The translations under genes and the position numbers were made by a program. Of a DNA stretch of 64,000 nt, positions 2,801 through 49,053 are shown one piece after another. Each line of letters starts with the position of its first letter. Within the stretch, counting starts at the first letter, position 1. The stretch spans positions 1 to 64,000 of the forward strand of contig JAUSBK010000011.1 of NCBI GenBank assembly GCA_030652115.1, written 5' to 3'. A model generated the notes under the pieces. The model made no database searches. It saw nothing but the letters and a program-made list of their open reading frames with translations, and was not told where the DNA came from. The stretch is from Coriobacteriia bacterium. GTDB taxonomy: Bacteria > Actinomycetota > Coriobacteriia > Anaerosomatales > Anaerosomataceae.

Positions 2801-3125
2801 GCTCATCGTCCTCACCGACCCCGACACGGCAGATGGTTTCGGTCTCGCCGGCGTCACCGTACAGGTTGCCGATTCGCCGGAAGATGCGCGGCGCAAGCTC
2901 GCGGCGCTCATCGACGACGACGATAGCGGGATCGTGGCCGTGAACGAGGCGTTCATGGTCGATATCGACGAACGGACGCAACAGAAGATCAACCAGTCGT
3001 ACCGGCCGATCGTGATCTCCCTGCCGATACGCGAACAGCTGGCGACCGAAGAGGACCATAGGGCGTACCTCTCGCGCCTGATCAGACGGGCCATCGGATT
3101 CGACATTACACTGAGGCGAGGCTGA
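2793..3125 (+). CDS. atpF: V/A-type ATP synthase subunit F
   Basis: Central-stalk subunit F, a small alpha/beta protein. It has 110 residues with the family pattern: an initial hydrophobic strand ([20 protein letters not shown]), a mid-protein GIVAVNE strand and a late PIVISLP strand. The start is TTG at 2793, chosen because it gives the standard N-terminus directly; the gene overlaps C by 8 nt and its stop shares a base with the subunit A ATG. A weak TTG start within an overlap suggests dependence on translational coupling. Confidence 0.9.
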
Positions 3126-4879
3126 TGATTGTCGGAAAGCTCTCAAAGATCACCGGTCCTGTCGTCGTCGCCGACGGCATGACGGGGACCAAGATGTACG
3201 ACGTCGTCCGGGTCGGCGATGCCGGCCTCATGGGCGAGGTCATCAGGCTCGAAGGCGAACTCGCCACGATCCAGGTCTACGAAGACACGTCGGGCCTGCT
3301 CATCGGCGAGCCGGTCGAGTCCACCGAAGGCGCGCTCAAGCTCGAGCTCGGCCCCGGGCTGCTGACGTCGATCTACGACGGTATTCAGCGTCCGCTGCCG
3401 GTGATCGCGGAGGAAACGGGAAGCGACTTCATCGCCCGTGGAACCGTGGCGAGCGCGCTGAACCGCACCAAGCTCTGGGAGTTCACGCCTGTGGCGGAGG
3501 TCGGGCAGGCGGTGTCCGGAGGCGACGTGATCGGCACGACACCCGAGGGTGCGACGGTGTTGCATCGCGTCATGGTCCCGCCGAAGACGCAGGGGACCAT
3601 CGCGTCGATCGTTGCTGCGGGCTCGTACACGATCGACGATGTCATCGCGGTGCTCGACAACGGCACTGAGATCAAGATGAGCCAGTGGTGGCCGGTCCGG
3701 TACGGGCGTCCGTACAAGCGGAAGCTCGACCCGACGACTCCCTTCATGACGGGGATGCGTATCCTCGATACGTTCTTCCCGGTCGCGCTGGGCGGCAACG
3801 CCATCATCCCGGGGGGCTTCGGCACCGGCAAGACGGTCACGCAGCAGTCGCTCGCCAAGTGGGCCGACGTGGACATCATCATCTACGTGGGTTGCGGCGA
3901 GCGCGGCAACGAGATGACCGAGGTGCTCGCCGAGTTCCCGGAGCTTGACGATCCGCGTACGGGTCACAAGCTGATGGATCGTACCGTTCTGGTTGCGAAC
4001 ACATCGAACATGCCGGTGGCCGCTCGTGAAGCATCGATCTACACGGGCGTCACGCTGGCGGAGTACTACCGCGACATGGGCTACAACGTCGCTATGATGG
4101 CTGACTCCACCTCCCGCTGGGGCGAGGCGCTCCGCGAGGTCTCCGGCCGTCTTGAAGAGATGCCCGGTGAGGAAGGCTATCCGGCCTACCTCGCCACCCG
4201 ACTCGCGAGCTTCTACGAGCGCTCCGGTCGTGTTGAAGCTCTCGGCGATGGGGACCGGGTCGGCTCGGTCACGATGGTCGGCGCGGTCTCACCTCCGGGC
4301 GGCGACATGTCCGAGCCGATGACCCAGAACTCCCTGCGTGTCACGGGTGCATTCTGGGCGCTGGATACCTCGCTTGCCCACCGCCGTCACTTCCCGGCGA
4401 TCTCCTGGACCAAGTCCTACACGCTGTATCTCAGCCAGGTTCAGGACTGGTTCGAGAGCGAGGTCGCCGATGACTGGCGTGCGGTGCGCGAGCGCGCGAT
4501 GTTCATCCTCCAGAAGGAAACCGAACTCCAGGAGATCGTGCAGCTGGTCGGCCCAGATGCACTGCCGGAGACCGAGAAGATCATCCTCGAGGTCGCCCGC
4601 ATGATCCGCGAGGACTTCTTGCAGCAGTTCGCGTTCGACGCCATCGATGCGTACTGCCCGCCGAAGAAGGCGTACTGGATCTTGAAGACGATCCTCGCGT
4701 TCAACGACGCCGCCACCCAGGCGATGTCTCGCGGCGTGTCGCTCCGGCAGGTCCTGCAGCTCCCATCGCGCGACGAGATCTCGACCCTCAAGACCACACC
4801 GCACGACGAGGCGCTGGAGCGCATGCCCGTGCTGGTTCAGCAGATCGGTGAACAGATCGCCGGAATCGAGGTGATGTAG
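3125..4879 (+). CDS. atpA: V/A-type ATP synthase catalytic subunit A
   Basis: Catalytic nucleotide-binding subunit of the A3B3 head. The 584-residue length is normal. The P-loop GGFGTGKT lies near residue 231, followed by [11 protein letters not shown], the catalytic glutamate-containing region typical of A subunits. The extra non-homologous bulge domain between the N-terminal barrel and the nucleotide-binding domain is present (about residues 110-200), which separates it from F-type beta. Start ATG overlaps the stop of F; subunit B begins immediately after its stop. Confidence 0.97.
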
Positions 4880-39338: not shown

Positions 39339-39380
39339 ATGCTTTGGAAACAACCAGCGCGACGAATACGAGGAGAGGTC

Positions 39381-40709
39381 ATGCCCCAGGAGCTTCGCAA
39401 TGATGTGGTCCAGACGATCAAGGACCAGAAGATCGAGTTCATCCACCTCTGGTTCACCGACGTTCTCGGCTTTCTCAAGAGCTTCACGATGGACGTGGCC
39501 GAGCTCGAACTGGCGATGACCGAGGGGATGGGCTTCGACGGCAGCTCCATCCAGGGCTTCGCGCGCATCCAGGAGTCGGATATGGTTGCGTACCCCGACC
39601 CCACGACCCTCAAGATCCTGCCCTGGCGCACGGGAGGACAGCTCGTGGCGACGATGTTCTGCGACATCGTGCGTCCGGACGGTACGCCGTACGAGGCGGA
39701 TCCGCGCTTTGTGCTCAAGCGCCAGCTCAAGCGCGCTGCAGCCATGGGCTACGCGATGTTCGTGGGCCCCGAGCTCGAGTACTACTACTTCAAGGACGAC
39801 ATGGGCACCGAGGTGCTCGACCATGGCACCTACTTTGATCAGACGACGCGCGATCTCGCGATCGACCTGCGCAAGGACACGGTTCGCGCGCTCAAGCGCT
39901 TCGGCATCCAGGTGGAGTACAGCCACCACGAGGTGGGCCCGAGCCAGCACGAGATCGACCTGCGCTACGCCGAGGCGCTCAACATGGCCGACAACGTCAT
40001 GACCTACCGCGTCGTGGTCAAGGAAGTCGCGCAGCAGAACGGGGTCTACGCCTCGTTCATGCCGAAGCCGATGTTCGGCGAGGCGGGCAGTGGCATGCAC
40101 GTGCACCAGTCGCTGTTCAAGGACGGCAAGAACGCGTTCTACGACGCGAACGACCCGTTCCACCTCTCGGCCACCGCGAAGAGCTACATCGCCGGCATCC
40201 TCGCGCATGCGCGCGAGACGACGCTCATCACCAACCAGTGGGTGAACAGCTACAAGCGGCTCGTCTCGGGCTACGAGGCGCCCGTGTACATCTGCTGGGC
40301 GCACCGCAACCGCTCGGCGCTGGTGCGCGTGCCGATGTACAAGCCCGGCAAGGAGAACGCGACGCGCGTGGAACTGCGCTCGCCCGATCCGGCGTGCAAC
40401 CCATACCTGGCGTTCGCCGTGATGCTGGCCGCCGGACTCGACGGTATCGAGCGTGGCCTCACGCTTCCCGCCGACGTGACCGATGACGTTTACGAGATGA
40501 CGCAGGCCGAGCGCGACGAATGCGGCATCGGCACACTCCCCGGCGACCTCGACGAGGCGATCGTGGAGATGGAGAAGAGCACGCTCGTGCGCGAGGCGCT
40601 CGGCGACCAGGTCTTCGAGTACATCCTGCGCAACAAGAAGGCCGAGTGGATGAACTACCACACGCGCGTGACACCCTACGAGCTCGAGGAGTACCTGCCG
40701 CTCCTCTAG
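39381..40709 (+). CDS. glnA: Glutamine synthetase, type I
   Basis: Makes glutamine from glutamate, ammonia and ATP. The 442-residue length and lack of a ~25-residue insert fit the GSI-alpha group. Motifs: GFDGSSIQGFARI, the metal-binding VGPELEYYYF, and SGMHVHQSL near the catalytic site; NRSALVRVP contacts substrate. ATG 39381 follows GAGGAGAGG. Divergent from a GltB-like gene, so together they may run a GS/GOGAT-type cycle. Confidence 0.97.
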   Translation: MPQELRNDVVQTIKDQKIEFIHLWFTDVLGFLKSFTMDVAELELAMTEGMGFDGSSIQGFARIQESDMVAYPDPTTLKILPWRTGGQLVATMFCDIVRPDGTPYEADPRFVLKRQLKRAAAMGYAMFVGPELEYYYFKDDMGTEVLDHGTYFDQTTRDLAIDLRKDTVRALKRFGIQVEYSHHEVGPSQHEIDLRYAEALNMADNVMTYRVVVKEVAQQNGVYASFMPKPMFGEAGSGMHVHQSLFKDGKNAFYDANDPFHLSATAKSYIAGILAHARETTLITNQWVNSYKRLVSGYEAPVYICWAHRNRSALVRVPMYKPGKENATRVELRSPDPACNPYLAFAVMLAAGLDGIERGLTLPADVTDDVYEMTQAERDECGIGTLPGDLDEAIVEMEKSTLVREALGDQVFEYILRNKKAEWMNYHTRVTPYELEEYLPLL

Positions 40710-40780: not shown

Positions 40781-43700
40781 CTACTTGAAGAACACCAGTC
40801 CGCCGCTGTAGTCGGCCACGTACACCCGCCCCTGGCTCACCGTGACTGCGTTGCACTCTCCGGCGGTGGGAGCCAGTGCGGCCAGCTGCGGAGCGGCGGG
40901 GTCGTCCCACGCGATCTTGGCAAGGCCCGCCGCGCCGAATCCTACGTAGAACACGAGCTTACCGTCGACGAGTGTGTAGTCGGCCTTGAAAGCGCCTCCG
41001 TCGACATCCTCGTAGCCGGGCACCCACTGGAGCTTGAAGCGACCGGTCTCGACTGGCCGGTAGTCGTACACCAGCTGGCCGGTGAGGCTCTTCTTCCAGG
41101 TCTCAGTGGGCTTGGTCCCCTCGGGCAGCGGTTCGATCAGATCCGCAAGTGAGTAGCACACCACGCCGAAGCTGTCGTAGCTGAAGTAGGCGTAGTCGCC
41201 AACGACGAGAACATCGGTGGCCTGGCCGTCAGCGGCGCCGACCTTGCCGTCCTCGAGCTTGATGGGTTCGAACACCTTCACGAGGTACATGTTGCGAACG
41301 TCAGTCACATCGACCACACCCACGCCACGAGGTCCGCACGCCACGAACGCGTAGACGCGGGCCGTGTCGGGATTGGTCCACAGCGCGATCCCCGAAGCGG
41401 TGCCGAGCGGCGGCTGGAGCATACCCGCGCCGACATTGCCCACCACGAAGCCGCCCTTGGGGTTGGTCGGGTTCTTCGTGGTGTCGTAGACCGTGATGCC
41501 GTTGCTACCGTCCGCGGTGTAGGCGTAGTTGCCCTTGATGACCGCGTCGTAGGCGTGATCCTGGTACTGAAGGCCCTTCACGGTGCCCCACTCGGCGTTG
41601 TGCTCAAAGCAGTCCGTGAGCGCGAGCGGCAGCAGGACCGGCGAACCTACCGCACCAGTGCCGCTCTCAACGGCCCCGACCTTGACGCGCCTCAGTCCGA
41701 GGCTGGCGCTTCCCGTCCACACAGTGTCGGTGGCGTCATCGAACACGACGTTGGTGGCGTGCGATGCGGGATAGATCTTCGTCGTCCCGACCGTGATCGG
41801 ATACTCGTCCTGCAGCGTGTTGCCTACGACGTGGACGGCGTCGGTGGCGTACCCGTCGGCATCAGTGATGTTCCACGCCGAGACACCGTGAGGACCGTCG
41901 GCAACGTAGATGTACTCATCCGAGCTCGCGATGCCCTGGGCGTGTCCGATGGACATCGTCTGAGTGGGCGATCCATCGGGCGCCGCACCGATCTCCGGGG
42001 TCGACGGGAAGTAGACCGGCACCGCGAAGCGGTCCTCCATCGCTGCGGCATTCAGATCGAAGATGTCCACGAAGTTGAAGCCGCCTGCGCCCGCGCACTC
42101 CAGCAAGTCGACCTGTCCTGCGGACGTGACGTCCATGCCGTCCATGAGCAGCAAGCTGTTGCCGTGGCCGTTGATCTCCGTCGTGGCCAGCAGGCACGGG
42201 TACTCGTACATCCACTTCGGCATCGACTCGTTGTCGCTCGGATCCCACGCCGACATGTCGAAGCTGGTGATGAACTCGAAGTCCGGCCAGTGGTTGCCGA
42301 GGATGTCATCGGTGTCGTTGTCGTAGGGCGCGCCTGCGCCCTGCCAGTTCTCCGGCGTCGCCGCGTCCTCGATGATCATCAGGCCTGCGAAGTGCTCGGT
42401 GAGGAACACCCTGCCGTCGGCCACCTCCACGTCCACCACGCCCGACTCCTTGAGCATCCCTGCGCCGAAGTAGGGGAGCAGGCTGCGCGACTGCTCGCCG
42501 GTTGGCTCGTCCGGCCCGTTAGCCGGAACAGCCGGCACGTAGCCGAGGTAGTCAGCCGTGAGGAAGGAGTCGGCTGTAGCCGTCTGGCAGCCGGTGACAT
42601 CGACGGCTACCATCCCGCCGAGTGAGTACGCGATGTAGGCGATCTGCCGGGCACCGTAGTCCACCACATCGACGCCCTGCGCCTTGTAGTAGAACTTACC
42701 GTAGCGGTCGAAGTCAGCCCACGGAGTGGGCGCAACCACATCGTTCTTCATGACGTTGGTGATCTCGAAGCTGGTCTGCCGGTAGTCGGGCAGGCCCGTG
42801 AAGCTGTCCAGGAATGGCTCCCCGGTGGCGGGATCGGTGGCGACCTGCGTGGCCACGTCCATGCCACAGAACCAGTCTTCGGCTACGGACGCATCGGTGT
42901 AGAGGTTGTACCGGCCTACCTGCTCGAGCGTCGCCGGATCGAAGATGCCAAGGCCCAGGCTCCCCATCGGAACGAACAGCCGGTTGCCCACGAGGTCGAT
43001 GCCCATCGGGCCGCCCCACGCGTTCTCGCCTGCGTACTGCAGCGTGTAGACCTCGGCGTCGATGGCGAGCGTGTCGTCGGCCTCAAGCACCGGACCTGTC
43101 TGTGCAAGCACGTTCGCGAGCGCCGTGCGGTGGATACCGTACCCGTAGTCGGCGATCCACAGCGTGGTGCCGTCGGTGACGAGGCCGGTGACCGGAGCGG
43201 TCGTGCTCTCGACGACGTTGCCATACAGGATGGCTCCACCGCCTTCGGTGAACGTCACGCCGTCCTTGTAGTAGTTCAGTCGGACCGCAGGCTTGAGCGC
43301 TATCGCACGCGGGTCCGTGATATCAGCCACCACGATGCCCGCGGTACCGCACGACAGCAGCGCGTAGCGGGCCATGCCCACCGCGACGACATCGATGTCG
43401 GTGATGAACCCGGGGGCGTATGCGGAGTACTGTTCACCTTTGGCGGTGCCGACAGTGGTGGCTACCAGATGGCTGCCGATGTTGAAGAGCGTCCACGTGC
43501 CGCCCTCGAATTCGAAGGTCGCGACAGCCGTTGATGAGCCGCCGACCTGGACGTTCTGTCCGAGGAACGGGTACAGGTCAGTTGGCTGCACGAATACGGA
43601 GACCTCAGACTCGGACGGCACATTGTCCGCTCCGGTCACGGATAGTTTGAAGATGAGTTCGGCGTCGGCGGCTACTTCGAGCGCACTGACGTCGGCTGTT

Positions 43701-44467
43701 GCCTCCGTGGAACTGACTGTCTGGAGCGGGACTTTGGGGCCGGATACCTGCGTCCACTGGTATGCGGCCGGTTCGCCCGAGAGCGTTGCGGTGAGCGTGA
43801 CGGTGGACGTGCTCTGTTCGACGAAGCGCACTGGATCGGCCGCAAGCGCGTCGATCGAGACGCCGCCGGAGGCCACCCGGGAGAGTGCCACGTCGTAGAC
43901 CGCGGTCTGCCCGCCGGTGATCGCTACCGGGCCGCTCGTGAAGTTGGAGTATCCGGTCCGGGTGACACTGACAGCAACCTCGCCCGCGGGGACGTTGACG
44001 ATCGTGTAGATGCCGGATGAGTCGGTCAGGCCGGTGCCGCCGCCGGGAGTGACCGTCACCATGGCGGCGCTGAGCGGCGCCATGGTAGTGGCGTCAGTGA
44101 CGCGGCCCGTCAACGTCCCCTTGAGCGAGATCAGCTTCACGTCGAGTGTATTGGCCCGTCCTGCCTTGACCGCGAAGCCCGTCCGCGTGAACGGGGAGTA
44201 GCCGTTGGCGGTGCACGTGACGCTGAACGTTCCCCCGGTCACGGTCATGCTGTAGCGGCCGCCGGCGTCAGTTGTGGCTCTGAACGTACCTTGGCCTCCG
44301 GTACCGGTTGCCGTGATCACGGCACCGCCGATCGGGGCGCCGCTGTCCATATCGGTGACGGTGCCCGAAAGCGTCGTAGCGCGCGCGGCCGAGGCCGGCG
44401 CTGCGAACGCGGTGAGCATGACCGCTGCCAAGACGATTGAAAGCAGGCGTCGAGAAAGTGGATGCAT
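40781..44467 (-). CDS. Large secreted protein with carboxypeptidase-regulatory-like and LVIVD-type repeats
   Basis: The 1228-residue exported protein has a signal peptide (1-28, ending APASAA). Two carboxypeptidase-regulatory-like beta domains follow (about 32-110 and 113-190; GTVTDMDSGAPIGGAVI, GRVTDATTMAPLSAAMV), then an Ig/PKD-like domain (about 205-295; YQWTQVSGP). The remaining ~900 residues form a beta-propeller-like region with recurrent segments such as YALLSCGTAGIVVADITDP, close to LVIVD repeats. No sortase motif, C-terminal membrane helix or DUF5648-like repeat is seen. Ligand and role are unknown; an extracellular surface or matrix protein is inferred. GAGGGGGG precedes the ATG. 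Confidence 0.85.
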   Translation of the reverse strand: MHPLSRRLLSIVLAAVMLTAFAAPASAARATTLSGTVTDMDSGAPIGGAVITATGTGGQGTFRATTDAGGRYSMTVTGGTFSVTCTANGYSPFTRTGFAVKAGRANTLDVKLISLKGTLTGRVTDATTMAPLSAAMVTVTPGGGTGLTDSSGIYTIVNVPAGEVAVSVTRTGYSNFTSGPVAITGGQTAVYDVALSRVASGGVSIDALAADPVRFVEQSTSTVTLTATLSGEPAAYQWTQVSGPKVPLQTVSSTEATADVSALEVAADAELIFKLSVTGADNVPSESEVSVFVQPTDLYPFLGQNVQVGGSSTAVATFEFEGGTWTLFNIGSHLVATTVGTAKGEQYSAYAPGFITDIDVVAVGMARYALLSCGTAGIVVADITDPRAIALKPAVRLNYYKDGVTFTEGGGAILYGNVVESTTAPVTGLVTDGTTLWIADYGYGIHRTALANVLAQTGPVLEADDTLAIDAEVYTLQYAGENAWGGPMGIDLVGNRLFVPMGSLGLGIFDPATLEQVGRYNLYTDASVAEDWFCGMDVATQVATDPATGEPFLDSFTGLPDYRQTSFEITNVMKNDVVAPTPWADFDRYGKFYYKAQGVDVVDYGARQIAYIAYSLGGMVAVDVTGCQTATADSFLTADYLGYVPAVPANGPDEPTGEQSRSLLPYFGAGMLKESGVVDVEVADGRVFLTEHFAGLMIIEDAATPENWQGAGAPYDNDTDDILGNHWPDFEFITSFDMSAWDPSDNESMPKWMYEYPCLLATTEINGHGNSLLLMDGMDVTSAGQVDLLECAGAGGFNFVDIFDLNAAAMEDRFAVPVYFPSTPEIGAAPDGSPTQTMSIGHAQGIASSDEYIYVADGPHGVSAWNITDADGYATDAVHVVGNTLQDEYPITVGTTKIYPASHATNVVFDDATDTVWTGSASLGLRRVKVGAVESGTGAVGSPVLLPLALTDCFEHNAEWGTVKGLQYQDHAYDAVIKGNYAYTADGSNGITVYDTTKNPTNPKGGFVVGNVGAGMLQPPLGTASGIALWTNPDTARVYAFVACGPRGVGVVDVTDVRNMYLVKVFEPIKLEDGKVGAADGQATDVLVVGDYAYFSYDSFGVVCYSLADLIEPLPEGTKPTETWKKSLTGQLVYDYRPVETGRFKLQWVPGYEDVDGGAFKADYTLVDGKLVFYVGFGAAGLAKIAWDDPAAPQLAALAPTAGECNAVTVSQGRVYVADYSGGLVFFK

Positions 44468-44678: not shown

Positions 44679-44957
44679 CTAGTCTTGTGCCTCCGGTCGT
44701 CCGACGTCCTGAATCACGACCGGCACGCCCTCGACCTCGCGGGGGATGTTCTCGGGAATCGCCAGCGGGTTCTCGAGGCCGACGACGATCGCTGTATCGC
44801 CGTTCTCATCCCGGCCGAGTCCGACGCTCAGAACTCCGCGGAGACGCATCAGCTTCTCGGCATGACGTGTGAGCACGTCGGTCGCATGCGGGGAGTCAGG
44901 CTTGCTTCCCCCGCCGAACCAGCCGCTGATGGTGTCCAGAATGCCGCGTCGTGTCAT
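44679..44957 (-). CDS. Stand-alone propeptide-like domain next to the trypsin-fold gene
   Basis: The 92-residue protein has no signal peptide. After a tryptophan/glycine-rich start (GWFGGGSK), its fold-bearing part reads LMRLRGVLSVGLGRDENG, then AIVVGLENP, then IPREVEGVPVVIQDVG. The same pattern (VxxxGIG, IVxxV, hP...pV.V..G) appears at residues about 22-78 of the upstream 330-residue protein. I infer a free copy of that N-terminal domain. The start lies 1 nt past the upstream stop, so the two are translated together. It may act as an inhibitor or chaperone for the neighbour; untested. Confidence 0.75.
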   Translation of the reverse strand: MTRRGILDTISGWFGGGSKPDSPHATDVLTRHAEKLMRLRGVLSVGLGRDENGDTAIVVGLENPLAIPENIPREVEGVPVVIQDVGRPEAQD

Positions 44958-44958
44958 T

Positions 44959-45951
44959 TCACAACCCTACGTCGAGTCCGGCAAAGACGTGCTCGATCCG
45001 ATTGACGAGCGTGCTCGTCTCACTGCCTGCGAACAGCAGCCCCACTATGTTGTTCCCCAGGTCGACCACTGCCGAGCCGCTGTCGCCGCCCTGGCTCATC
45101 GCCCCGGCCATCAGCTGGTCCGAGAAACGGGCGACACGGTCGGCGCTGTAGCCCACGTCCACCGTTACGTCCACCTGCTCGATCTCACCCATGGTGAGCC
45201 CGGTCGTGCGGCCGCTCTTGCGGATGCGCATGCCCAGTTCGGCTGCGGCCTGCCCGGTGATGGCGCCGATTCCCAGGATCTCCGAGGAGACCAGTGCGGA
45301 ATCGTCCGGCAGGGCGGTTGCAGCGTCGACGAGGTTCGCGGCCGACCGCTCGCTCACGACCTGCATGCGCGCACTGCTGCCTGCAAGACGGGCGAGAGCA
45401 TTGAGTCCCGAGGCTACGCCCTTCGCGAAGGCGCACGAGCTGTCCCCGCCGGCCATCGTGATGGGCACGAAGCGATCGAGCGTGGCGATGCGATCGGCAG
45501 ACGCCCCCCCGTCGATCGGGCCGGGCTGGAGGATCACGTCACCCGGTGCGCCGGCGTTGCAGTCGGCGAACACGTGGTTGTTGGAGAGGAGCAGGACCTG
45601 CTCGCCGCGGTGCACGACGCAGCCGAGCGTGCCTGCGGTGATAGAGGCATGGCCGATGCTCACACCGCCCTCGGCCGGTCGCCAGCGCTCGGTGGGCGCC
45701 TTGAGCGCGCGGAACGGGCCGGTCGCGACCACATCGGTCGGGAAGTCCCCGAGACGGACAGGGACCATGTCGGCAGCGGAAAGCGCCGAAACGGGCACCT
45801 TCTCGGTGACCGAGCAGACGATCGAAAGCTGGTCTGTGCGCACGCCATCGCTCACCTTGTAGCCGATGCCGGTGGCGACGACGTTCGCGCGAGCGTGTAG
45901 TTCGTCGCGAGCCGCCGCAAGCGCGTGCGTGAGTCCCTCGGATGCGAGCAC
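44959..45951 (-). CDS. Trypsin-fold serine protease-like protein
   Basis: The 330-residue protein has a chymotrypsin-like core: histidine in LLLSNNHVFA and nucleophile serine in GGDSGSAVVD, about 120-310. The region before it (1-100) is a propeptide-like alpha/beta domain. No signal peptide is seen, so it may act inside the cell or leave by another route. GTG 45951 follows GGAGAGGGGG. The catalytic aspartate cannot be assigned by eye, so activity is not proven. Confidence 0.8.
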   Translation of the reverse strand: MLASEGLTHALAAARDELHARANVVATGIGYKVSDGVRTDQLSIVCSVTEKVPVSALSAADMVPVRLGDFPTDVVATGPFRALKAPTERWRPAEGGVSIGHASITAGTLGCVVHRGEQVLLLSNNHVFADCNAGAPGDVILQPGPIDGGASADRIATLDRFVPITMAGGDSSCAFAKGVASGLNALARLAGSSARMQVVSERSAANLVDAATALPDDSALVSSEILGIGAITGQAAAELGMRIRKSGRTTGLTMGEIEQVDVTVDVGYSADRVARFSDQLMAGAMSQGGDSGSAVVDLGNNIVGLLFAGSETSTLVNRIEHVFAGLDVGL

Positions 45952-46070: not shown

Positions 46071-47612
46071 CTACCGCGCGAACCATTCCCTGACGGCGTT
46101 CTCGATGCCCTCGCGGCCGGCGTCGACCACGGCGCCAAAGCGCTCGGGGAGCATCGCGATCTCAGCGAGGGGAGCGGGAACGGGACCTGCGTCGGGCGCG
46201 AGGCGACGGACTTCGTCGAGCAGCTCGAGCCCCGAGAGTGTGGCGGCATCGGCGGCAAGAGGCGCGGCATACGCGGTCTGTGTAAGCGCCCGGAAGACGT
46301 CTGCGCCGAACTTCGCCCAGTGGGCCGTCGAGACCACAAGCACCGGGTCCTCGCCGCGCAGACGTTCGGCCACTTCCCATGCCACCGCCGTGTGCGGGTC
46401 CATCAGGTAGCCGTACTCGTCGTAGACGCGCTTGATGATGTCGAGGCTCTCGTCGTTGGTGACCCAGTCGGCGATCATCAGCTCGCGCACCGCGGCGAAC
46501 GTGTCGCGGTCCACGGTGAACCGGCGGTTCTCGGCAAGCTCGGCCATCCAGCCGCGCACCGCTTCGGCACCCGCGAGCTCGTAGAGCAGGCGCTCGAGAT
46601 TGCTCGATATGAGGATGTCCATGCTCGGGCTGGGCGTGGTCACAAACGCGCGGTCCGAGATGTCGTACGTGCCGGTCGCGATGAAGTCCACGAGCACGTT
46701 GTTCTCGTTGCTCGCGCACAGCAGCCGGCCGATCGGCACACCGATGCGCCTGGCGTAGTACGCGCCTAAGATGTTGCCGAAATTGCCGGTGGGCACGCAC
46801 ACGTCCATCGGCGAGCCCGGCTTCACGCCGCCTTCGGCCACCATGTCGGCGTACGCGCTCACGTAGTAGGCGATCTGCGGAAGCAGCCGGCCCCAGTTGA
46901 TGGAGTTCGCCGAGGAGAGCCTGAGCCCGCGCTCGGCGTGCAGTTCGGCATTGAACGCCGCATCGTTGAACGCGGCCTTGACCGCGTTCTGGCAGTCGTC
47001 GAAGTTACCGCGCACGCCAAAGACGCCCACGTTGTCCCCACGCTGGGTGACCATCTGGAGGCGCTGGATGTCGGAGACGCCGCCAGCAGGGTAGAAGACC
47101 ACGATTCCCGTATGTGCCCGGTCGGCGAAACCCTCCAGCGCGGCCTTGCCGGTGTCGCCTGATGTCGCCACGAGCACGAGATAGTCGTCGGCGAGTCCGC
47201 CGGAGGCCTGCATGCGATCCACCGCTTCGGAGAAGAAGAGCGGCATGCACTGGAGGGCCATGTCCTTGAAGGCACTCGTGGGACCGTGCCAGAGTTCGAG
47301 AATGTGGGTGTCGGCGACGACCTCCACGACCGGCGCGATGCGTTCGTCGTCCCACTGGGAGCCGTATGCGGACTGCACAAGCGCAGCGATGCGCTCTTCC
47401 GGAACGTCCACGCCGAAGCGTGCGAAGACGGCGGCGGCGCGGCGCCAGTACGGCTGGCCGGCGAGCTCGAGTATCTCGGGCAGCGTGAACGACGGGAGCC
47501 GCTCCGGCACGTAGAGTCCGCCGCCCGGCGCGATGCCGCGCACCACGACCTCGCTGAACGTGGGCCGCGAGTCGTCGAGACCACGGCTATCGATGTAGGT
47601 GACCGGCTGCAT
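46071..47612 (-). CDS. thrC: Threonine synthase
   Basis: PLP enzyme that converts O-phosphohomoserine to threonine. The 513-residue protein has the PLP lysine in GPTSAFKDMALQ, ATSGDTGKAALEG and the phosphate-binding VPTGNFGNILGAYYA. Length and the YIDSRG start fit the longer thrC class. Start ATG 47612; ATG 47624 four codons upstream is an alternative. Neither has a clear ribosome site, and TACGAT just upstream may be a -10. Divergent from the methyltransferase gene with a gap of only 66 nt. Confidence 0.94.
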   Translation of the reverse strand: MQPVTYIDSRGLDDSRPTFSEVVVRGIAPGGGLYVPERLPSFTLPEILELAGQPYWRRAAAVFARFGVDVPEERIAALVQSAYGSQWDDERIAPVVEVVADTHILELWHGPTSAFKDMALQCMPLFFSEAVDRMQASGGLADDYLVLVATSGDTGKAALEGFADRAHTGIVVFYPAGGVSDIQRLQMVTQRGDNVGVFGVRGNFDDCQNAVKAAFNDAAFNAELHAERGLRLSSANSINWGRLLPQIAYYVSAYADMVAEGGVKPGSPMDVCVPTGNFGNILGAYYARRIGVPIGRLLCASNENNVLVDFIATGTYDISDRAFVTTPSPSMDILISSNLERLLYELAGAEAVRGWMAELAENRRFTVDRDTFAAVRELMIADWVTNDESLDIIKRVYDEYGYLMDPHTAVAWEVAERLRGEDPVLVVSTAHWAKFGADVFRALTQTAYAAPLAADAATLSGLELLDEVRRLAPDAGPVPAPLAEIAMLPERFGAVVDAGREGIENAVREWFAR

Positions 47613-47678: not shown

Positions 47679-48263
47679 ATGGCGCACCTGAAGTTCGATA
47701 TGGCTAAGCTTGAGCGGCTGAATGACCCGGGCAGGTTCGACACGCTGCCGCCTGACGTGTTCTGGTCGGCGCTCGGCTCGCTCTCGGGCGCACACACCAT
47801 CGTGGAGATCGGCGCGGGCACCGGGCTGTTCGCCGCCGCCTTCGCCGCGCGTGCGCCGGAGGCGACCGTCTACGCGGCCGACACGGCAGACCTGATGCTG
47901 GAGTGGATGCGCGAGCATCGGCCCGAGGTGGCCGAAGGCCGTGTGGTGCCGATCAAGGCGGCCGAGACGCACGTCCCTCTCGCCGACGGTGTCGCGGACG
48001 CCGTCTACATGATCAACCTGCACCACGAACTCGCAGACCCTGCTGCGTCGTACGGCGAGGCGTTCCGGCTGCTCAGGCCGGGCGGACGACTGCTTGTGGC
48101 CGACTGGGCGCCGCGCGACACGCCGAAGGGGCCTCCGCAGGAGGTGCGCGTCACCGCCGGCGAGCTGGAGGCGCTGCTCCTCGCGGCAGGATTCACCGGG
48201 ATTGCAATCGACGATACGACGCTCGTGTGGCATCTTATGGCCACGGCGATCCGTCCGGAGTAG
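47679..48263 (+). CDS. Class I SAM-dependent methyltransferase
   Basis: Rossmann-fold methyltransferase, 194 residues. SAM-binding motif I is IVEIGAGTGLFAAAFA, with acidic residue in YAADTAD and a later LLRPGGRLLVADW motif. The substrate is unknown. ATG 47679 is preceded by GCGAGGAGG; the longer frame would overlap thrC. Single gene. Confidence 0.88.
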   Translation: MAHLKFDMAKLERLNDPGRFDTLPPDVFWSALGSLSGAHTIVEIGAGTGLFAAAFAARAPEATVYAADTADLMLEWMREHRPEVAEGRVVPIKAAETHVPLADGVADAVYMINLHHELADPAASYGEAFRLLRPGGRLLVADWAPRDTPKGPPQEVRVTAGELEALLLAAGFTGIAIDDTTLVWHLMATAIRPE

Positions 48264-48289: not shown

Positions 48290-48526
48290 TCAGTCGTGCG
48301 TGCCGAGCGAGGCGGAAAGCCCCCGCCCCACGATCGCGCTGTTCAGCTGGTCGCACAGCCGCAGGCGCGTGTAGCGCCCGGGCGGCAGGCCGTTCACGAC
48401 GTCCATCGCCTCGGCTGGCAGGTCGAACGTCTCGGCGCGGACGATGGCATCCAGCTGCGTGACGACCTTCGTATCGCGGTAGAGCGAGTCGAGCCAGCGG
48501 CGTATCTGCTCGCGATCGTCCTCCAT
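48290..48526 (-). CDS. Hypothetical protein, 78 residues
   Basis: I do not recognise this family. It is a small, soluble, helical protein beginning MEDDREQIRRWLDSLY, with no metal or membrane signature. Its ATG overlaps the upstream acetyltransferase stop (ATGA), so it is made with that gene. An alternative start 17 codons upstream lies inside the acetyltransferase gene and is rejected. Confidence 0.65.
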   Translation of the reverse strand: MEDDREQIRRWLDSLYRDTKVVTQLDAIVRAETFDLPAEAMDVVNGLPPGRYTRLRLCDQLNSAIVGRGLSASLGTHD

Positions 48527-49053
48527 CAGCCCTCGAACTCCCCGGCGAGCAGGTCCATGAGCAGTCCGTCGTGCCACGCCCCGGTGATGTCTCGCTCGTA
48601 CGCGCGCATCACACCCACGGGCCTGAAGCCGACCTTCTCGTAAACGCGGATGGCGCGCGCATTGTCCGTTGCCGGGTCGATCGTGATGCGATGGTGGCCG
48701 CGCTCATCGATGAGGTACCGGATGAGCCGCTTGAGCGCCTTCGTGCCGAGCCCGCGGTCCTGGTACGCCTCGCCCAGCGTGACGTCGACGCCCGCGCTCT
48801 TGTAGTCGGGGTCGGGGACTTCATGGAACTGCAGAATGCCGGCGAATGCTCCGTCGACGATCACGAGGTACGTGTACGCCCACGCCGGATCGAAGAAGTC
48901 GCGCTCCAGCTTCTCGGCGTCGTACGCGCCCCACCACCGCGCCACCCCGGGCTCCCGGAGCAGGGCGAGCATCGCTTCGGCGTCGGCGCGCCGAAGCGGG
49001 CGGAGCTCGAAGCCATCACCTTGGAGGATGGGCAGTCCGGCGTTGAAGTCCAT
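48526..49053 (-). CDS. GNAT family N-acetyltransferase
   Basis: Acetyltransferase, 175 residues, of the RimJ/AAC(6')-like type (Acetyltransf_8 layout). The acetyl-CoA loop is YQDRGLGTKALK, with later ITIDPATDNARAIRVYEKVGF. Start ATG 49053 after GGGAGA. Proteins with this layout acetylate aminoglycosides or small amines or protein N-termini; no choice is possible here. Divergent from apgM. Confidence 0.87.
   Translation of the reverse strand: MDFNAGLPILQGDGFELRPLRRADAEAMLALLREPGVARWWGAYDAEKLERDFFDPAWAYTYLVIVDGAFAGILQFHEVPDPDYKSAGVDVTLGEAYQDRGLGTKALKRLIRYLIDERGHHRITIDPATDNARAIRVYEKVGFRPVGVMRAYERDITGAWHDGLLMDLLAGEFEG

Follow-up and report, generated by a model that had tools for sequence, protein, structure and literature searches.

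A gene for a NAL1-like serine protease and, one nucleotide downstream, a gene for a 92-residue protein homologous to the protease's own N-terminal domain were found on the minus strand of a Coriobacteriia contig, of which a stretch of 64,000 nucleotides (hereafter the window) was analysed. The pair is conserved across phyla, and the small gene was retained in several genomes that have lost the protease. Our preferred reading, held tentatively, is that the small protein acts in trans as a prodomain-like regulator of the protease. If this is correct, a protease family that is widespread among prokaryotes, and akin to plant NARROW LEAF 1 (NAL1), has a built-in partner, which would explain the safekeeping of a cytosolic trypsin-like enzyme and would offer a simple bacterial model for work on NAL1.

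Gene layout and the NAL1-like protease

The protease gene (45951-44959, minus strand, GTG start, TGA stop) encodes 330 amino acids and the small gene (44957-44679, minus strand, ATG start) encodes 92. The junction reads TGA-A-ATG (44955..44961), with a single A at 44958 separating stop and start. Re-reading of the sequence confirmed the coordinates, strand, sizes and 1-nt gap given for the two genes in an earlier note on this DNA. The order on the minus strand is thrC (threonine synthase; 46071..47432, start approximate; PALP E 1.5e-14, THR4_C E 6.8e-4), the protease gene, the small gene and a gene for a 1228-residue protein; downstream of the pair, the gene for glutamine synthetase (39339..40709, plus strand; Gln-synt_C E 3.6e-130; neighbour cluster c0) runs convergently. 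Synteny within the window's family places thrC upstream of the pair at most loci, and the glutamine synthetase gene also adjoins it at most loci.

The 1228-residue protein (40781-44467, minus strand), whose gene separates the small gene from that for glutamine synthetase, has a start that by eye resembles a signal peptide, carboxypeptidase-regulatory-like stretches, a PKD-like domain and an LVIVD repeat; among the loci compared, its cluster was common only to the G002:C23 locus. A methyltransferase-like frame with a VEIGAGTGLFAAAF pattern recognised by eye (about 47680-48263, plus strand) is divergent from thrC. A 95-residue protein with no Pfam match (48290-48577, minus strand) overlaps the end of a GNAT acetyltransferase gene, and its cluster (c10) was found again at three other loci of the window's family.

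Searches of the 330-residue protein against Pfam gave NAL1_N (E 5e-5), Trypsin_2 (E 0.0034) and Nal1_C (E 0.016), all below the curated cut-offs, and PHROG 20754 ('protease') was matched with E 7e-65. A profile of 11 protease relatives matched NAL1 chains in the PDB over residues 21-131 (E 1.4e-5). The protein consists of an N-domain (residues 1-85, 45697..45951) and a protease domain (residues 91-330, 44962..45681). Within the latter, H126 (45574-45576), D209 (45325-45327) and S291 (45079-45081) were invariant in the protease alignments, and the NNHV, NLVDAA and GGDSGS motifs in which they stand suggest that these are the catalytic residues. The protease and the small protein were modelled jointly (mean pLDDT 87.2), and residues 91-333 of this model matched streptogrisin and alpha-lytic proteases with Z 19-22 at 1.6-2.2 A (alpha-lytic protease, Z 20-21 at about 2.1 A); the protease part gave Z 15.8-18.1 with NAL1 and up to 15.2 with Deg proteases. 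The double beta-barrel with His-Asp-Ser of S1 enzymes, and with it the trypsin fold proposed earlier, is thus borne out by the fold matches and the motifs.

The subthreshold Pfam matches, the PDB profile and the structural matches also place a NAL1_N-type domain (PF25608) before the trypsin-like domain, the same order as in NAL1. The window protease differs from NAL1 in its length (330 residues vs 362-586 in the solved NAL1 constructs) and in that its NAL1_N and Nal1_C matches fall below the Pfam cut-offs. Oligomer form and plant-type substrates are among the features of NAL1. No free N-domain partner of NAL1 was found in the titles and abstract openings of the open-access papers surveyed.

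The small protein and the protease N-domain

The motifs of the two domains are in register (VLSVGLG, IVVGLE and IPREVEGVPVVIQDVG in the small protein vs VVATGIG, IVCSVTEK and VPVRLGDFPTDVVATG in the protease). Pairwise BLASTP gave no similarity between the small protein and the N-domain (best E 3.0, elsewhere in the protease) and a shallow profile comparison was weak (Prob 27, E 6.5e-4); both were too weak to decide the matter, which was settled by deeper alignments only. When an alignment of 74 small proteins was compared with the N-domain using hhalign, Prob 97.4 and E 9.5e-12 were obtained over 73 columns with 18% identity. As controls, none of nine other 85-residue stretches did better than E 0.019, and among 40 column-shuffled N-domains the lowest E was 0.0043. 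An HMM built from small proteins only matched the protease N-domain (E<1e-3) at 64 of the 80 chromosomal loci and at 31 of the 78 on viral contigs. In the joint model both domains have the same alpha-beta-beta-beta order (H5-19/E24-34/E37-48/E70-76 in the N-domain and H354-368/E373-380/E386-392/E409-415 in the small domain), so that the structural similarity whose absence would have spoken against the earlier proposal was found. To judge from these comparisons, the small protein is an ancient, distant paralogue of the protease N-domain; the resemblance reported in the earlier note is real, and the word "copy" used there is generous. The pTM of the joint model (0.73) does not fix the docking of the two proteins.

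Modelled alone, the small protein (mean pLDDT 77.7) contains an N-terminal segment of low confidence (residues 1-20, 44898..44957, including ILDTISGWFGG; residues 1-12 and 14-17 under 50) and a predicted folded domain (residues 23-90, 44688..44891) with the elements H23-37, E42-49, E55-61 and E78-84. No family of Pfam, NCBIfam or PHROG reached significance with this protein. Its best structural match was the NAL1 N-domain (8pmm_C, Z 7.4 over 70 residues). The first six Foldseek matches were alpha-lytic protease pro regions (E 0.008-0.023, prob 0.99-1.0), with Z 5.4-5.6, a level that a common arrangement can give. Against the pro region family PF02983, hhalign gave E 0.77 for the small domain and 0.16 for the N-domain, and shuffled versions scored better (0.053 and 0.031). 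Sequence kinship to the pro region was rejected on this E of 0.77 and on the lack of a Pfam match. Since the Z scores may reflect a frequent arrangement of elements and a link at the sequence level was not found, the pro region is used here as an analogy only.

Conservation of the pair and loss of the protease

A GTDB scan gave at least 453 relatives of the protease, of which the best 80 were taken, a sample biased to close relatives (50-73% identity). Their titles included Coriobacteriia, Gamma-, Beta- and Deltaproteobacteria, Chlorobiota, Bacteroidota groups, Caldithrix/Calditrichota, Armatimonadetes, Gemmatimonadetes, Rokubacteria, Chloroflexi and, among the archaea, Methanomicrobiales. A free-domain match was obtained at 78 of these 80 loci, and L171 and L175 end at a contig edge. 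The free domain was directly downstream on the same strand, with its start within about 120 nt, at 75 of the 78 testable loci, a tally that takes in L116, L159 and L177 after their protease frames had been confirmed; a 4-nt NTGA stop/start overlap is possible at 45 of the 74 loci scored. At L176 the free domain is divergent and at L183 it lies 1.4 kb away. In the Chloroflexi locus L173 it is a separate 112-residue frame directly upstream (2872-3207, plus strand), and the protease beside it retains its own N-domain. This copy matched the protease profile better than the small-protein profile (3.5e-16 and 3e-12) and may be a separate duplication.

Within the window's order, a protease match was present in 19 of 69 genomes (two split over contigs, one a remnant only), and by coordinates the small gene adjoined the protease in all 19. 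Class-level matches in G182, G183 and G339 were discarded because they were located in unrelated long proteins, and G011 and G021 gave weak or partial matches. An evenly drawn sample of 369 gammaproteobacterial genomes contained 23 with a match (G1032:C197 was outside the matches inspected). Of 22 small-type matches, 16 had a protease within about 1 kb and one was fused to a protease; the others were at contig ends (G901:C243, G833), non-adjacent (G900:C10, G889) or ambiguous (G882). Eight of the 23 genomes overlap the best-80 set, and in the 15 outside it 9 of 13 small-type matches were beside a protease. For the proteases of G789 and G412:C83, no small gene was seen in the contig sequence examined.

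More distant relatives were inspected in 6 of 13 plasmid matches and in 2 of 3 phage records (H3, a RefSeq copy of H2, was left out). The pair is present on a Rubrobacter plasmid, and on a Rhizobium plasmid the small gene is divergent and upstream of the protease. Gemmatirosa gave N-domain-like matches only, in long frames, and no free copy was seen in Clostridiaceae, Paenibacillus, Natronococcus, an uncultured phage or Aeropyrum coil-shaped virus. The protease of this last virus (HE681887.1), annotated as a putative serine protease, is a relative of the NAL1-like family (31% identity) and had no recognisable small partner. The partner was also mostly absent at 78 viral-contig loci, of which only L187, L253 and L255 had less than 300 nt downstream: at most three had one, a possible small domain lying directly downstream at L260 and L262 and about 1 kb downstream at L248. 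Viral contigs were also searched with patterns able to detect only close relatives, and neither the window's small protein nor the fused protein described below had a match there. The protease frame of L225 is broken. Because viral-contig proteases are mostly unpartnered, the G789 and G412:C83 proteases stand without a partner in the sequence examined and NAL1 was solved alone, the partner is dispensable for folding in general.

One natural fusion was found. The second protease of G404:C45 (Acidiferrobacterales title) is a single frame with a hydrophobic leader, a protease domain and a C-terminal small domain, and it has no N-domain. This single case is suggestive of a joint function and is no proof of one; no other match covering both parts was obtained in 57 genomes of the same order. 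The fusion, in which the small domain is present in place of the N-domain, also fits a structural subunit, that is, a small domain fixed in a mixed protease oligomer, where it would fill N-domain positions and would not be an inhibitor. Homology to the N-domain, the near-constant pairing and the coupled starts are likewise consistent with such a subunit. We regard it as unlikely, since the small gene stays under selection after loss of the protease and leader-bearing forms of its product occur in many diderm bacteria.

Loss of the protease was seen in the window's own family, where, of 27 genomes, 18 carry the small gene and 10 have an intact or split protease. Eight of the 18 lack an intact protease: seven retain the small gene with no protease match at all, and in G022, next to an intact small gene, only the last ~47 codons of the protease remain, distributed over two frames. 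At G002:C23 a weak protease vestige (E 0.21) was found in the right place. At most family loci the small gene has thrC and the gene for glutamine synthetase nearby, whether or not the protease is present; in the seven protease-less genomes, thrC is close by in all seven and the glutamine synthetase gene in six (the G003 contig ends). Rough dN/dS estimates, several with high dS, were 0.12-0.26 for six pairs of solitary small genes and 0.17-0.22 for three pairs of protease-paired ones. These values indicate that the solitary small genes tested are under purifying selection, and the small protein therefore has some role in the absence of this protease. The fixed complex that had been offered as one possibility is, in its strict version, unlikely for the same reasons, eight of 18 genomes being without an intact protease and solitary copies being under purifying selection.

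The same seven genomes, the one with a remnant only, the persistence of the small gene in the neighbourhood of thrC and glutamine synthetase, and a solitary leader-bearing small gene in G900 would also agree with separate roles, in which the small protein would be a domain that binds or senses some other target and is paired with the protease by chance. Pairing across phyla and the gene fusion weigh against this, and we consider chance pairing slightly less probable still than a fixed subunit; gene surroundings were compared within the window's order only.

Leaders, internal starts and possible roles

A hydrophobic stretch upstream of the domain was detected in 46 of 76 small genes scored. Such leader-like segments occur in many diderm relatives, at the place of residues 1-20 of the window's small protein. 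None was scored in the window's relatives or in two archaeal, two Armatimonadota, four Calditrichota-titled and seven Bacteroidota-group members. The leader sets (46 genes with a 40-residue window, 45 with a 26-residue window) were picked by hydrophobicity in their own frame, so that the other two frames are the only control; in the 45-gene set, these were hydrophobic in 0 and 2 cases and contained stops in 38 and 16. The leader-bearing sequences are related and form 34 clusters at 70% identity. K or R was present close to the N-terminus in 41 of 45, and a lipobox-like Cys followed the leader in 22 of 45 (three by the strict pattern). Tat-type hitch-hiking export was set aside, as RR was present in only 4 of 46 leaders.

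An in-frame internal ATG (36 genes) or GTG (10) was found within two codons of the domain start in all 46 leader-bearing genes. Where the aligned residue at the internal start is Val, the codon was GTG in 8 of 9 cases; in L180 the neighbouring Val is GTA and an ATG is one codon away. Anti-Shine-Dalgarno energy at the internal starts had a median of -5.9, with 65% at -5 or lower, vs -2.4 and 15% for 752 control ATG/GTG codons within protease genes (p 8e-11; the sequences are, however, related). At six of the 46 internal starts a ribosome site is practically absent (energy 0 or above), and the upstream (leader) starts gave -2.9. The simplest reading suggested by the two starts is that an exported and a cytosolic small protein are made; if the dual start is real, one regulator would be made for two compartments.

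The regulator that we favour would work as follows. The two genes would form a translationally coupled module, in which the first encodes a leaderless NAL1-like serine protease that retains its N-domain in cis and the second a free version of this domain. No signal peptide was seen by eye in the 71 readable protease N-termini among the best 80 of 453 relatives, and the enzyme is presumably cytosolic. The free domain would most probably dock on the protease, at the catalytic domain or against the N-domain, and there restrain or shape its activity, as propeptide-like inhibitors do with subtilisins and cathepsins; translational coupling would hold the two proteins in step. In many diderm bacteria the two starts would give a leader-bearing exported form beside the cytosolic form, so the free domain might have a role in the cell envelope as well. 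Domain homology, the shared order of elements, the pairing, the fusion, the fold matches and the internal starts count for the regulator, to which we give somewhat less than an even chance. It is weakened by the family genomes that keep the small gene without an intact protease, by the viral-contig and gammaproteobacterial proteases for which no partner was seen, by the lack of a sequence match to the alpha-lytic pro region and by the fact that the leader-bearing form and the leaderless protease would sit in different compartments. A bolder version would have one gene guard the leaderless protease in both compartments, the internal start giving the cytosolic copy and the upstream start the exported one, and the guards outliving the protease. 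The protease would then be restrained inside, and any released protease would be met in the envelope; this version is doubtful, a little more so than chance pairing. The coupled propeptide-like domain of the earlier note stands in part: it is the same domain, coupled, with conserved pairing and one fusion, and its modelled fold resembles that of the NAL1 N-domain, the likeness to a pro region being weaker.

Secretion-system immunity genes look like coupled downstream leader-bearing genes. A pair of this kind, in which the leaderless protease reaches other cells or the envelope, an exported downstream guard meets it and orphan guards persist, would agree with the coupled order, with the frequent leaders and lipobox-like Cys (22 of 45) and with the solitary small genes, but is improbable, since the protease is widely conserved, mostly with one or two copies per genome (50 genomes searched), since the pair also occurs with leaderless small proteins in Coriobacteriia, Armatimonadota and archaea, and since the enzyme and its partner share a homologous domain, which to our knowledge is not so in the usual effector-immunity pairs.

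The prodomain-like regulator consists of parts of known kinds, namely a NAL1-like protease and a free propeptide-like domain. Stand-alone homologues of a protease's N-terminal domain are known among the free propeptide-like inhibitors of subtilisins (I9) and cathepsins (I29), such as POIA1 and CTLA-2; crammer and an I29 protein are also described as such. These inhibitors act on proteases of another class and fold, and differ from the window's small protein in that its gene is coupled to that of the protease. The alpha-lytic pro region, which also inhibits in trans, differs in that the free domain here is a separate gene, with no known cleavage site and no profile match. This pro region is described as speeding the folding of its protease (PMC2829044).

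A coupled pair with an apparent dual start was not found in the titles and abstract openings of the open-access papers surveyed. One gene giving two products through an internal start is described for two-polypeptide endolysins and ClpB isoforms (PMC9430671, PMC6168691); unlike these, the upstream start here would, to judge from sequence, add a signal-peptide-like leader. In a gammaproteobacterium (L368, G900:C10), where no protease frame was seen in 582 nt upstream, the small protein is solitary and has a leader, an internal Met and a CNGAPCIKI motif.
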